Assembly (NCBI RefSeq): GCF_009741275.1
Contig: NZ_WOWS01000002.1
Location: 248,001-312,000, forward strand
Length of the DNA: 64,000 nt
Source: Winogradskyella endarachnes
GTDB lineage: Bacteria > Bacteroidota > Bacteroidia > Flavobacteriales > Flavobacteriaceae
Reading direction: 5' to 3'
Both the position numbers and the translations under genes were made by a program. The notes beneath the pieces are model-generated. The model was not told the DNA's origin. It did not search any database and saw nothing but the letters and a program-made list of their open reading frames with translations. Positions 10,273 through 16,268 of this stretch are shown here, one piece after another; position 1 is the stretch's first letter; each line of letters begins with the position of its first letter.

Positions 10273-10486
10273 AAGCCCATCCTAGCCTTCCCATTGGGAA
10301 GGAACTCTTACTTGGGCGAATAAGAGTAGTTATTAAACAATAATATTTAACTGATAATAGCTAAAAAATAATGTCACTAATATACAAAGACCGTACAGGT
10401 TTTTAAAACCTTTAAAGCCTATTTTTAAGTTAAGGATTGCCGCAACAGTTTCTCCTTCCTTTATTGGAAGGGTTAGGGAAGGGCTT
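10273..10486. repeat. Composite palindromic element (a), dioxygenase/SDR junction
   Basis: Left half at 10273-10327 begins AAGCCCATCCTAG and contains the GC-rich palindrome CCTTCCCATTGGGAAGG. The right half at 10452-10486 is its inverted counterpart and ends GGGCTT. The centre also holds an ACAGGTTTTTAAAACCT palindrome (10395-10411) of a second repeat type. The left half is nearly identical (3 differences in 55 bp) to 13361-13415. The element fills the 226-bp gene-free gap. Confidence 0.85.
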
Positions 10487-10489
10487 TTT

Positions 10490-11272: not shown

Positions 11273-11398
11273 AAGCCCATCCCAACCTTCCCAAAGGGAA
11301 GGAGTCTTGTTAAGAGTTATTATTTTAAAATTTTATTCAATTTATATTTAGAGTTCCAATCTAGTTTCTTCCCTTACGGGAAGACGGAAGATGGGCTT
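11273..11398. repeat. Composite palindromic element (b), SDR/aldehyde dehydrogenase junction
   Basis: 126 bp. Left half 11273-11318 begins AAGCCCATCCCAACCTTCCC right after the SDR start codon; right half 11366-11398 is its inverse and ends GATGGGCTT, one base from the dehydrogenase stop codon. The centre is AT-rich. It accounts for the entire intergenic gap. Confidence 0.87.
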
Positions 11399-12841
11399 CT
11401 AGTATTTTATACAAACATTCTTAGCTTCCGTAAAAAAGCGTAAGGCTTCAAAGCCACCTTCGCGTCCTACACCTGAAGCTTTTACACCACCAAAAGGGGT
11501 TCTTAAATCGCGCATCATCCACGTGTTTACCCAAACAATACCTGCTTGTAATTGGTTACTCATTCGCATAGTACGTTTTAAATTATTAGTCCACAATGTA
11601 GCTGATAAACCGTATTTTACTTTGTTTGCCATTTCTAAAACCTCGTCTTCTGATTTGAATGGCATTATGGTTACTACTGGTCCAAAAATTTCTTCTTGGT
11701 TCACTCTGCAATCGTCATTAGGCACTTCAATAACGGTTGGTTCTAAATAATAACCGTTTTCAAATCCTGCAACAGTCACTTCGTTTCCTCCATAAAGTAC
11801 AGTTCCATTTTCTGTTTTTGCAATGTTAATATACTCTTTTACTTTTTCAAGATGTGGTTTGGACACTAAAGCGCCAATATTGGTAATGGATTCTGAAGGA
11901 TGTCCGACTTTAAGTTGCATTACTTTTTCAACAAAGTCAGTCTTAAATTTTTCATAGATAGAAGCTTCCACAAAAATACGACTGCCGCACAAGCAAATTT
12001 GCCCTTGATTAGCAAAAGACGAACGTACTGTTGTGTTTAGCATATCATCATAATCACAATCGGCAAAAATGATATTTGGATTTTTTCCGCCTAATTCTAA
12101 AGATAGTTTTTTGAACATTGGTGCGGCAACTTTAGCAATATGTGCACCTGTTGCAGTGCCACCCGTAAAGGAAATGGCTTTAATATCTGGATGCTCAATA
12201 ATAGCTTGTCCTGTGGTTGTTCCTAAGCCGTGAACAATGTTTAGAACACCTTTTGGCAAACCAGCTTCGTTACAAATTTCTCCTAGTAAATAAGCCGTCA
12301 TTGGTGTAACTTCACTCGGTTTGGCTACGACGCAATTTCCTGCGGCTAATGCTGGTGCAATTTTCCATGTAAATAAATAGAGTGGCAAATTCCAAGGACT
12401 AATGCAACCTACAACACCAATGGGTTGACGCAAGGTGTAATTAATGGCATTCCGCCCTACGGATTCATGACTTTCACTGGCAAATTGCGTTATCGCATTC
12501 CCAAAAAAGCGAAAATTGCTTGCTGCTCTAGGAATATCAACAGCTTTTGCTAATGAAATAGGTTTGCCATTGTCTTTACTTTCCGCTTCGGCAAAACGGT
12601 CTAAATTAGCTTCTAATAATTCTGAAATTTTAATGAGGATTCTGCTACGTTCTTCTAATGAGGTTTGCGACCACAGCCTAAAGGCTGATTTGGCATTTTT
12701 ATACGCTTCTTCTACGTCTTCTTTTGTTGAATTAGGAATTTGTCCGTAAACCGTTCCATCTGATGGATTATAGTTATCTATCCAGTTGCCTTGAATTGGG
12801 TTTGGGAATTTTCCGTTTATGTAGTTTTTGATAGTTATCAT
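11399..12841 (-). CDS. Aldehyde dehydrogenase, probable 2-aminomuconate semialdehyde dehydrogenase
   Basis: 480 residues, full-length ALDH superfamily enzyme. Visible motifs: S-P-W-N-L-P (about 147-152), K-P-S-E for cofactor binding, F-T-G-G-T near 225, general base E in L-E-L-G-G-K, and the catalytic cysteine in Q-G-Q-I-C-L-C-G. The hydroxymuconic/aminomuconic semialdehyde dehydrogenase assignment comes from the neighbouring ACMS decarboxylase and aminomuconate deaminase-like genes. It would oxidise 2-aminomuconate 6-semialdehyde with NAD+. Cytoplasmic. Confidence 0.88.
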   Translation of the reverse strand: MITIKNYINGKFPNPIQGNWIDNYNPSDGTVYGQIPNSTKEDVEEAYKNAKSAFRLWSQTSLEERSRILIKISELLEANLDRFAEAESKDNGKPISLAKAVDIPRAASNFRFFGNAITQFASESHESVGRNAINYTLRQPIGVVGCISPWNLPLYLFTWKIAPALAAGNCVVAKPSEVTPMTAYLLGEICNEAGLPKGVLNIVHGLGTTTGQAIIEHPDIKAISFTGGTATGAHIAKVAAPMFKKLSLELGGKNPNIIFADCDYDDMLNTTVRSSFANQGQICLCGSRIFVEASIYEKFKTDFVEKVMQLKVGHPSESITNIGALVSKPHLEKVKEYINIAKTENGTVLYGGNEVTVAGFENGYYLEPTVIEVPNDDCRVNQEEIFGPVVTIMPFKSEDEVLEMANKVKYGLSATLWTNNLKRTMRMSNQLQAGIVWVNTWMMRDLRTPFGGVKASGVGREGGFEALRFFTEAKNVCIKY

Positions 12842-13360: not shown

Positions 13361-13480
13361 AAGCCCATCCTAGCCTTCCCATTGGGAAGGAACTCTTACT
13401 CGGGCGAAAAAGAGTTTTTATATTATTTTATTTTTTAAGCCCATTTGTTTCCCTTCCTTTGGAAGGGTTAGGGTAGGCTT
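13361..13480. repeat. Composite palindromic element (c), kmo/RidA junction
   Basis: 120 bp. Left half 13361-13415 is nearly identical to the left half of element (a); right half about 13447-13480 contains CCCTTCCTTTGGAAGGGTTA and runs into the kmo stop codon (13479-13481). AT-rich centre. Confidence 0.86.
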
Positions 13481-14933
13481 ATAACCCAGCAATCCTATCA
13501 TCTTCTAAAATAGCTTCAGTTTCTGCATTTACTTTGTCTAGAATCTCTTTTAAATCGTCTTCTAATGATATAATTTTATCGGTTAATAGGTTTAAAATCG
13601 CTTTGTCTTGTGCGCGTCCTTTTAACATGGCTTGTCGGTAACCTATGTTTTCATTAAAGGTAACTAAACTGTATTTTGATGAATACGCATTCTGAAATTC
13701 TTTTTCTAATGCCATTTCAATTTTTCGTTTTTCTTGAAATATTGGGTTGGCCACATGACCTTTCATTTCGTGGAAATTGTCAATGGCTAAATCGGCAATA
13801 GCATCGGTATCTTTCTTGCGATTTTTCTCGTAAGTTTTAAATATTGCTTCCCAATTTTCTAAATTTTGGTCTAGGACTTTATCAAATTCTACGACGTCTT
13901 CAAAAGAAGCATTCATACCTTGACCATAAAATGGTACAATGGCATGCGCGGAATCTCCCATTAATAATGTATTTCCTTTATAATGCCATGGCGAGCATTT
14001 TACCGTGCCTAAAGCAGCTGTTGGGTTTTCAAAAAAATCATCAACTAAATTCGGCATAATTTCTAAGGCATCTGGAAACTCGTTTTGAAAGAATTCTGTT
14101 ACAGCTTCTGGCGTGGTTAAATTATTGAAATTATATCTGCCTTCGCTGTAACTTAAAAATAAAGTGACGGTAAAACTTCCGTCTAAATTTGGCAACGCTA
14201 TAAGCATAAAGCTACTTCTAGGCCATATGTGTAAAGCGTTCTTAAAGGTTTTGTAATCGCCAGTTTCGGTTGGTAAAAAGCTTAGTTCTTTATAACCATG
14301 ACTCAAATACTCTTGCGAAAAACTGAATAAAAATTTCTTTCCTAAATAATAACTTTTTCGCAAGGCAGAACCTGCACCATCGGTTGCTATGATGCAATCG
14401 GCATCTTCTACAAATTCGTCTTTAGAGTTATAATCTTGAAATAAAGCCGTGGTTTTTTCAAAATCTACAGACTTACATTTTTTATTGAAATGAATGGTAA
14501 CGTTATCATGTTTTTCGGCTTCATTGAGAAGTAATGCGTTTAAATCGCCTCTAGAAATTGAGTTGATGTATTCGTAATCCCTTCCGCTGTAATTAGACAT
14601 GAAAGTCTTTCCTTCTTTATCATGAATCATTCTTCCATGCATAGGAATACATAATTCTTGCACTTTATCTTCTAAGCCTACGAGTTTCATGGCTTTGTTT
14701 CCGCGGTCAGAAAATGCTAAGTTAATTGAGCGACCTGCAGAAATGTCTGTGGTTCTAAGGTCTGGACGCATTTCGTAAACGGATACATTGTAGCCACGTT
14801 GTCCTAGTCTTAGTGCTAAAAGGCTTCCGCAAAGTCCTGCTCCAATGATAAGTATGTTTTGGGCAGCCCCTTCTAAATCTTCCCCAAAAGGGAAGACTTT
14901 TTTACTGTTGCTGAGTTTTGTAGTTTTAGCCAT
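13479..14933 (-). CDS. kmo: Kynurenine 3-monooxygenase
   Basis: 484 residues, FAD-dependent aromatic hydroxylase that converts L-kynurenine to 3-hydroxykynurenine with NAD(P)H and O2. The FAD site G-A-G-L-C-G-S starts near residue 32; D-G-A-G-S and G-D-S-A-H-A-I-V-P-F-G-Q-G-M-N, the second FAD motif, are present (about 185 and 327). The dinucleotide fold would normally begin within a few residues of the start, but here about 26 residues precede it. Codons ~13-24 come from the left half of repeat element (d), and no start codon exists between it and the fold, so ATG 14933 is the only choice. Confidence 0.9.
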   Translation of the reverse strand: MAKTTKLSNSKKVFPFGEDLEGAAQNILIIGAGLCGSLLALRLGQRGYNVSVYEMRPDLRTTDISAGRSINLAFSDRGNKAMKLVGLEDKVQELCIPMHGRMIHDKEGKTFMSNYSGRDYEYINSISRGDLNALLLNEAEKHDNVTIHFNKKCKSVDFEKTTALFQDYNSKDEFVEDADCIIATDGAGSALRKSYYLGKKFLFSFSQEYLSHGYKELSFLPTETGDYKTFKNALHIWPRSSFMLIALPNLDGSFTVTLFLSYSEGRYNFNNLTTPEAVTEFFQNEFPDALEIMPNLVDDFFENPTAALGTVKCSPWHYKGNTLLMGDSAHAIVPFYGQGMNASFEDVVEFDKVLDQNLENWEAIFKTYEKNRKKDTDAIADLAIDNFHEMKGHVANPIFQEKRKIEMALEKEFQNAYSSKYSLVTFNENIGYRQAMLKGRAQDKAILNLLTDKIISLEDDLKEILDKVNAETEAILEDDRIAGL

Positions 14934-14986
14934 GTTTTTTTTTTAGTAATTAGTTCCTTCCCTTTGGGAAGGTTAGGATGGGCTTT
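14863..14986. repeat. Composite palindromic element (d), overlapping kmo 5' end and kynU 3' end
   Basis: Left half 14863-14897 (AGCCCCTTCTAAATCTTCCC...) lies inside kmo in frame; right half about 14954-14986 (CTTCCCTTTGGGAAGGTTAG..., ending GGGCTTT) encodes the last residues of kynureninase. Spacing and orientation match elements (b) and (c), so this appears to be one complete element whose sequence became coding in two genes. Confidence 0.8.
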
Positions 14987-16236
14987 AATTTCTCCACCAT
15001 TAAATACACATCTTCAAATGAATTGTATAATGGTACTGGTGCACATCGTATCACATCAGGCTCGCGCCAATCGCTAATCACTCCGGCTGCTGTTAATTTA
15101 TCGTGTAATGATTTATCTGCATTCAACACTTGAATAGATAATTGACAACCGCGTTCTTCAGGGTTTTCTGGTGTGATAATTCTTATGGTATCTTCGCCTA
15201 AGTCTTTCAATAGAAATTCAAAATAACCAGTTAATTTTTTCGATTTTTTAAGGATTTTATCAAATCCGACCTCATGAAAAATATCTAAAGAAGCTTTTAT
15301 AGCTGCCATGGATAAAATAGGTGGATTACTGAGTTGCCAACCTTCGGCTCCTGGTAACACATCAAACTCATGTCGCATATTAAAACGTGTGTTTTTATTA
15401 TGGCTCCACCAACCTGTAAAACGATTAAGGTCTTTATCATAAGCGTGGCGCTCATGAACAAAACAACCCGATAAACTTCCTGGTCCTGAATTTAAGTATT
15501 TATAAGTACACCAAACGGCAAAATCTGCTCCAGAATTATGTAAGTCTAAGTCAACGTTTCCGGTACCATGAGCACAATCAAAACCGACTTTGCAACCATA
15601 ACTGTGACCAAGTTTTGTGATGCGTTTAAAATCGAAAAATTGCCCTGTGTAATAATTAACACCACCAATCATAATTAAGGCTATCTCATTACCCTGAGCT
15701 TCAAGAATGTCTTCCAAATCTTCATAGCGCAATAATTCTTCGCCTTTTCTTGGTTTCCAAAGAATTAATCCTTCTTTATCATCGTAACCATGATGACGTA
15801 ATTGAGATTCTACTGCATATTTATCTGAAGGAAAGGCATCACTTTCAATAAGAATTTTATAGCGTTCTTTGGTTGGTTGATAAAACGACGCCATCATAAA
15901 ATGCAGATTCGCCGTCAAAGAATTCATGGTAACCACCTCAATGGGTTTAGCACCCACTAATTTAGCTGTGGCTTCGGTTAGAAATTCGTGGTATGGTAAC
16001 CATGGGTTTTTAGCGTCTGTATGGCCTTCTACACCAAGGTTTGCCCAATCTTCTAATTCTTGATTGATATAGTCTTTTGTAACTTTTGGTTGTAGACCAA
16101 GTGAGTTGCCACAGAGGTAAATAAGGTCGTTTCCATCCTTGTCTTTTGGGATGTGAAACTGATTTCTATAGCTTGATAATTCGTCTAATTCGTCTTGTTG
16201 TTTTGCGTAATTAAGACCAGATTTGTAGTTGGACAA
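14950..16236 (-). CDS. kynU: Kynureninase
   Basis: PLP enzyme that cleaves 3-hydroxykynurenine/kynurenine to (3-hydroxy)anthranilate and alanine. Motifs: C-G-N-S-L-G-L-Q-P (family N-terminal signature), the aspartate in F-D-C-A-H-G, and the Schiff-base lysine in C-T-Y-K-Y-L-N-S-G-P-G. The open frame extends to a TTG at 16263, but that TTG is part of a TATTTTTG promoter-like box. A TTG at 16236 (giving M-S-N-Y-K-S-G-L) agrees better with related proteins. The last 11 residues (K-P-I-L-T-F-P-K-G-R-N) are encoded by repeat element (d). First gene of the cluster, 16 bp before kmo. Confidence 0.9.
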   Translation of the reverse strand: MSNYKSGLNYAKQQDELDELSSYRNQFHIPKDKDGNDLIYLCGNSLGLQPKVTKDYINQELEDWANLGVEGHTDAKNPWLPYHEFLTEATAKLVGAKPIEVVTMNSLTANLHFMMASFYQPTKERYKILIESDAFPSDKYAVESQLRHHGYDDKEGLILWKPRKGEELLRYEDLEDILEAQGNEIALIMIGGVNYYTGQFFDFKRITKLGHSYGCKVGFDCAHGTGNVDLDLHNSGADFAVWCTYKYLNSGPGSLSGCFVHERHAYDKDLNRFTGWWSHNKNTRFNMRHEFDVLPGAEGWQLSNPPILSMAAIKASLDIFHEVGFDKILKKSKKLTGYFEFLLKDLGEDTIRIITPENPEERGCQLSIQVLNADKSLHDKLTAAGVISDWREPDVIRCAPVPLYNSFEDVYLMVEKLKPILTFPKGRN

Positions 16237-16260
16237 TTTGAAAGGTTTTACGGATTGTAA

Positions 16261-16268
16261 CAAAAATA
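16261..16268 (-). promoter_or_regulatory. TATTTTTG -7 element before kynU
   Basis: On the minus strand the sequence TATTTTTG fits TAnnTTTG. No clear TTTG box at -33. It would be the promoter of the kynurenine cluster and would place the start of transcription at about 16254. Confidence 0.45.

Follow-up and report, generated by a model that had tools for sequence, protein, structure and literature searches.

The junction between kynU and kmo in Winogradskyella endarachnes probably holds a copy of a mobile family of palindromic arms of the Flavobacteriaceae, a nuclease-less relative of an element that carries DUF559 in frame and, apparently, unspliced. (We take DUF559 to be a Vsr-like endonuclease domain.) The evidence comprises insertion in frame, a scattered distribution, arms common to both forms, and a constrained nuclease in RecG.

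The window analysed here, a 64,000-nucleotide stretch of the W. endarachnes genome, contains a kynurenine operon on the minus strand. Sequence and open reading frames give its order: kynU; kmo; and genes for a RidA-like protein, an aldehyde dehydrogenase (ALDH), an SDR, 3-hydroxyanthranilate dioxygenase, and an ACMSD-like protein. KMO and KynU were scanned with Pfam; the other names are presumed from sequence. Inverted pairs of a hairpin arm occupy four of the six operon junctions (Table 1). At kynU/kmo, the element (14863–14986) consists of two inverted arms of about 40–49 nt each. The initial annotation held that a repeat element codes for the KMO N-terminus and the KynU C-terminus, including the last 11 KynU residues, and the sequence, reading frames, and arm models bear this out. 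Its placement of the kmo start needs refinement: the ATG lies inside the two-arm unit, but in the spacer and not in either arm.

Table 1. Features of the kynurenine operon in the window. R1 and R2 are models of the right and left arm, respectively; the kynU/kmo locus is a training row of both, and its own bit scores are not independent.
Feature	Position	Strand	Remarks
Left (outer) arm	14946..14986	-	Codes last 11 KynU residues, KPILTFPKGRN, plus stop; R2 62.7 bits at 14946-14985 (training row)
Right (inner) arm	14864..14912	+ (model strand)	Read on -, codes KMO residues 8-23, SNSKKVFPFGEDLEGA; R1 75.5 bits (training row)
Spacer between arms	14913..14945	-	Contains kmo ATG, 14931-14933; within predicted RNA hairpin of both arms
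kmo, kynurenine 3-monooxygenase	13479..14933	-	Arm-encoded N-terminal extension; N-terminus MAKTTKLSNSKKVFPFGEDLEGAAQNILIIGAG
kynU, kynureninase	14950..16263	-	Arm-encoded C-terminal tail
Second two-arm copy	13361..13480		kmo/ridA-like junction; R2 at 13361-13400 + and 13441-13480 -; kmo stop TAA overlaps arm end
Third two-arm copy	11273..11400		ALDH/SDR junction; R2 at 11273-11312 + and 11357-11398 -; abuts SDR ATG and ALDH stop
Fourth two-arm copy	10273..10489		SDR/3-hydroxyanthranilate dioxygenase junction; R2 at 10273-10312 +; right arm found by eye, absent from R2 listing

Pattern counts agree that the arms are repeated. With up to three mismatches, AAGCCCATCCNANCCTTCCC is found 4 times in the window, where 0.01 would be expected, and GCCCWTCCYDRMCTTCCC has 20 genome-wide against 5 for the reversed pattern; CCTTCCCNNNNGGGAAGG has 11 in the window against 0.5 expected, overlapping matches counted. 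Arms also occur singly (loci L004 and L011), so the two-arm unit may be assembled from separate arms. An Rfam search gave two hits under the gathering scores (E 0.23 and 1), which were judged to be chance.

A KMO query returned 80 named loci, chiefly from Winogradskyella, Psychroserpens, Algibacter, and allies, for a comparison of 81 KMOs. An arm-encoded stretch precedes QN/QD-ILIIGAG in 12 of these, in frame in all 12; the other 69 lack it. Measured up to the N of NILIIG, with the nearest in-frame ATG taken as the start, the arm-bearing proteins have 19–25 residues, whereas the armless ones have 4–6 in 67 cases and 11 in one, the last having no ATG (GTG start). An arm-like DNA motif is present in the 120 nt upstream of the KMO core in 12/12 extended and 0/69 unextended cases. 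Among the 77 KynUs that could be read, seven have an arm-encoded tail, KPILTFP[K/E]GRN in four, and all seven lie upstream of an extended KMO; most of the others end in or near K-x-I-L-N(E). No element-free relative combines the same KMO extension and KynU tail. This supports the earlier proposal that insertion changed both protein ends and left both genes intact.

The clearest pair (L130 against L127) shows how the N-terminus was changed. The Algibacter pectinivorans protein reads MNKQ-TKKVLSFGEGLGEA-QNVLIIG where its relative L127 reads MNKQ-QNILIIG, a 14-codon in-frame insertion: the insert follows native first codons and brings no new start. Of the 77 junctions that could be read, 14 have an 8-nt overlap between the kynU stop and the kmo ATG, an arrangement that we take as ancestral. 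On this reading, one arm would have entered kmo behind its native first codons, and a second, inverted arm would have entered at the end of kynU. KMO would have gained about 20 residues, predicted to be unstructured; the last residues of KynU would have been exchanged for an arm-encoded tail that mimics the native KxILN. The kynU/kmo junctions of L074, L076, L079, L091, and L131 carry other repeat families (CTCGAGCGCAGTCGAGAGG type; GATTCCTGCCTTCGCAGGAATGAC type) ahead of the kmo ATG.

Arm-bearing KMOs are scattered over the KMO tree. The extension needs 11 changes (shuffled mean 11.5), at least six of them forced by starred branches. A single clade is rejected for all 12 arm-bearing KMOs (p-AU 2e-62) and for the six on the Winogradskyella side (p 4e-7); the window KMO and that of L073 are compatible with one clade. 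The scatter could reflect either repeated gain or a single gain with allele replacement. One ancient kmo insertion, lost or overwritten through recombination in most lineages, would explain why the peptide GEDLxGA and the right joint ahead of CAAAACATA are near-constant among arm-bearing KMOs. We hold this to be possible yet doubtful: species without the element retain the overlapping native start across several genera, stem types differ (CTTCCC, CTCTCC), and left joints are variable.

The arms are not confined to kmo. R1, a covariance model of right arms trained on the 12 KMO rows only, was run against 60 Winogradskyella genomes and matches in 42 at E ≤0.1, with 12 copies listed in the window's own genome. 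R2 at E ≤0.001 matches in 26 of 149 genomes of the family, including the source genome, where it finds 18 places. Ninety arms among the best-scoring R1 matches listed were read with their flanks, a non-random set (30 automatic loci and 60 chosen stretches) in which the same orthologous site in several species is counted several times. Thirty-six are N-terminal and in frame; nine are internal and in frame; nine supply the stop codon of a converging gene; 12 lie 0–30 nt past a gene end; 16 lie just ahead of a gene start; seven are unclassified; and one is open without a start. Half of the set, 45 arms, is thus in frame; the host genes are of 11 kinds, with names presumed from motifs. The N-terminal hosts are MurC (13, including L219), KMO and MurD (7 each), HisH (3), and ACMSD, HemW, and PaaD (2 each); the internal hosts are LeuRS and lipoyl E2 (3 each), IcmF (2), and IleRS (1). 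Other genera have arms too, for example in HisH (L339) and in IcmF with two arms (L354). By eye, a typical arm peptide is SxSEKVLPFGKDLGxA. The family would appear to insert beside and within genes, keeping one sense frame open.

The hairpin stem is supported, although not strongly by the count of pairs changed on both sides. Right-arm stems are paired in 95.8% of cells and left-arm stems in 98.0%, with six both-sided cells in each (shuffled means 1.9 and 1.2, respectively). Pairs with both-sided change number two in right arms, which is not above shuffles (reached by 261 of 500), and three in left arms (31 of 500).

Three of the R1 matches fall within LeuRS reading frames in which two arm peptides enclose a DUF559-like domain. 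For one such insert, Pfam lists PF04480 (DUF559) at 111.8 bits and a weak MTES_1575 match, and nothing else. PF04480 is present in 43 of the 60 genomes, with two matches in the source genome. Copies inside host proteins occur in RecG, MetH, LeuRS, and IleRS, in 19 genomes in all.

The recG site occurs in three states. Among the 49 of 60 genomes read, 30 are empty, 5 residual, and 14 full. Between the anchors, the empty allele (SKLWHKNTSPPHV type) has the native loop of 18 residues; residual inserts are 34–42 residues long, and full inserts 162–171. The source genome's own recG contains the domain (G000:C12:794000-797400, locus L328). Among the residual inserts, that of G053 (SSQSSQNETDPNEVGGA) retains a resemblance to both arms, and that of G029 keeps SSQSSQ; in the other three, arms are unrecognisable by eye.

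The training rows of R1 and R2 include no RecG arm. Both models were nevertheless matched at E ≤0.1 to flanks of in-host DUF559 when 40 DUF559 loci were searched: RecG, right 12/14 and left 13/14 (R2 best 1e-10); LeuRS, right 3/3 and left 1/3 (a partial match); MetH, left 4/4 and right 1/4; and both sides of the single IleRS copy. Support for a flanking arm is therefore weak on the left at LeuRS and on the right at MetH. At the same threshold, no arm was found at 11 solo DUF559 loci (two with an internal stop), at six fusions to a serine racemase, or at L252. Because arms of the same family flank in-frame DUF559 in these host genes, two-arm copies such as that at kynU/kmo are read as nuclease-less relatives. 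The serine-racemase fusions (L323–L326, L329, L330) have another DUF559 subtype ahead of a serine racemase/threonine dehydratase-like protein; their linker, of the LKTPLKSPQGD type, resembles a further palindromic arm, and neither arm model matches there. L252 (G051:C152) has DUF559 in a 439-aa ORF.

Several features bear on the nuclease itself. Over 14 RecGs, pN/pS is 0.184 for DUF559, 0.054 for the flanks, and 0.425 for the right arm; the domain in RecG is therefore constrained by purifying selection, and the arm less so. A RecG insert matches PDB 3hrl ("Endonuclease-Like Protein") at E 8e-18, and a PADLOC homing endonuclease profile matches weakly (2e-5). By eye, the RecG, MetH, LeuRS, and IleRS inserts consist of arm peptides, short linkers, and DUF559, with no splicing domain noticed, so the domain would remain in the host protein. 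The inserts form clades by host site (RecG 100/98, MetH 99/97, LeuRS 99/95, bootstrap not settled). Since each arm-flanked site with several rows forms its own clade, there is no sign that the nuclease form has lately moved from one site to another. Its presence in RecG is patchy on the KMO tree, where a RecG state is available for 40 genomes (11 full, 4 residual, 25 empty); the full state needs eight changes (shuffled mean 9.8), and the sister genomes G058 and G025 are full and empty, respectively.

We infer that the arms insert by transposition, that DUF559 mobilises them, and that the DUF559 protein would cut the target and drive spread. Genomes with in-host DUF559 have a mean of 6.1 arms against 2.1 without it (p 2e-5), or 4.9 against 2.1 when one flanking arm is discounted per nuclease (p 0.001), in sets compiled by hand and with kinship ignored. 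Again ignoring kinship, arm number does not follow solo DUF559 (p 0.53) or Y1_Tnp (p 0.18). These counts bear on the idea that DUF559 genes entered pre-existing palindromes secondarily and have no role in arm mobility. Source-genome arms (18 by R2) outnumber its DUF559 matches, and some arm-rich genomes lack in-host DUF559 (among the matches listed, G036 has 15 arms, G043 13, G011 10, G034 9, and G041 8). We nonetheless think secondary entry unlikely: four unrelated host genes have the nuclease with arms beside it, and arm number tracks in-host and not solo DUF559.

A different mover is implied if the arms are ordinary intercistronic REP/BIME hairpins, moved by a tyrosine (RAYT) transposase, that overlap coding sequence incidentally because operon gaps are tiny. 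Two inverted hairpins, intercistronic sites, and single arms all fit this, and the source genome has a Y1_Tnp gene, with an arm-like repeat after the hemF part fused to it. That gene, the genome's only Y1_Tnp match, was discarded as the arm mover: it adjoins a different repeat, and arm counts do not track Y1_Tnp. Moreover, LeuRS, IleRS, E2, and IcmF carry in-frame copies inside the gene, away from any intercistronic gap. This origin seems improbable. The gene itself (L001 1441-2973, G000:C34) is one ORF with a RAYT-like Y1_Tnp N-terminus (25.2 bits in one scan; 21.8, below the cut-off, in another) in frame with coproporphyrinogen III oxidase (443 bits). The other repeat, CCTGCAAGGTTT..AAACCTTGCAGG, stands at its start, and a variant thereof at the joint with HemF. 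Y1_Tnp occurs in frames of 492–532 aa in 16 genomes of the genus; the source-genome frame alone was checked as HemF.

The preferred reading, a palindromic arm family with a DUF559-bearing relative, has also to be set beside known systems. REP/BIME sequences (GTAG, CGTC) are likewise described as short hairpins in inverted pairs near gene ends, intragenic in several species, and the accounts in PMC3733652 and PMC2817692 place CGTC repeats in Bacteroidetes too. Unlike them, the arms listed in the source genome are few, and the one RAYT gene opened there is not flanked by the same repeats, despite the arm-like repeat beyond the hemF part. Inspection of the arm alignments by eye showed neither GTAG nor CGTC at the hairpin foot. 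Closer are the Rickettsia palindromic elements (RPE), presented in PMC2229807 and PMC3733652 as small palindromes that have become in-frame parts of conserved proteins, N-termini included; coding palindromes of Wolbachia may be comparable. The initial annotation drew this parallel, and in behaviour the two are alike: arms lie in frame both at N-termini and within conserved proteins. An RPE is one unit of 105–146 bp, whereas here there are two separable arms, a Bacteroidota host, and relatives that flank DUF559. The portion of PMC2229807 drawn on here also describes the 107-bp NEMIS of Neisseria, ERIC, and Yersinia YPAL as non-autonomous small repeats that fuse a reading frame to host ORFs; their sequences and hosts differ, and that portion mentions no nuclease-bearing relative.

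Like a MITE, the arms have termini in common with a larger enzyme-bearing form, in that arm models match both flanks of DUF559 in RecG; no target site duplication is evident by eye at the kmo or RecG joints. Homing endonuclease elements (of Vsr-like type) and inteins offer a further likeness: a nuclease in a conserved gene, patchy, with empty alleles, and nuclease clades that are distinct for every arm-flanked host site represented by several rows. What sets the insert apart is the coding palindrome on either side of it; reading the inserts by eye turned up no splicing domain. Solo DUF559 frames in the genus mostly span about 118–135 aa, whereas the in-host domain forms part of much longer frames, about 850–1275 aa. 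Among the top-ranked titles of a literature search, no paper was recognised on these arms or on DUF559 inside RecG, MetH, or LeuRS.

The arm frames are presumably translated and the host proteins still active. That N-terminal arms might instead be untranslated 5′ mRNA hairpins, with KMO starting at a non-ATG codon just ahead of QNILIIG, is very improbable: a part of PMC3733652 does argue that, in P. putida, C. koseri, and S. maltophilia, REPs at N-termini mostly go untranslated, and in the predicted fold of the junction RNA the two arms pair with each other (-36.8 kcal/mol; 196 of 200 shuffles fold less well, z -2.24), yet in the window no in-frame ATG, GTG, or TTG is left between the kmo arm and the core, the motif lies in an open frame in 12/12 KMOs that bear it, 31 of the 34 N-terminal arms that have an ATG have the nearest one 5–9 codons upstream, and internal copies sit in long frames and would need translation. 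Translation of the kmo and kynU arms would yield peptides of VFPFGEDLEGAAQ from KMO and would end KynU in PKGRN. Ten solved KMO sequences begin to align at residues 21–26 of the window KMO, and its residues 1–22 have pLDDT <50 (in a structure model weak overall, mean pLDDT 64); the extension is thus plausibly a harmless tail.

Taken more broadly, these sequences may well represent a new bacterial mobile element. Palindromic arms with one open frame, together with a DUF559 endonuclease, would insert as a translated, never-spliced domain; would home to sites like those in recG and metH; and would shed arms lacking the nuclease, which end up as peptides at the N-terminus, inside, or at the C-terminus of many proteins, as at kynU/kmo. 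Such an element would also make sense of the odd peptides at the N-termini of flavobacterial proteins and of the DUF559 domains inserted in them. To our knowledge, no mover of RPE-like coding repeats has been established. In this genus, with its many sequenced species, arms flank a candidate nuclease and close relatives carry empty, residual, and full recG alleles, so the spread of coding repeats becomes directly testable. The literature consulted here reports small repeats in frame from Rickettsia, Neisseria, enterobacteria, Yersinia, and some others.

Arms can also be arranged in other ways. In IcmF (L214, L231, L354), two inverted arms stand some 30 codons from each other and seem to have host sequence between them in place of a spacer or nuclease, and at L009 (1500-1560) an arm has a further insert inside its own hairpin loop (ACTTCGACTGCGCTCAGCACAAGC).
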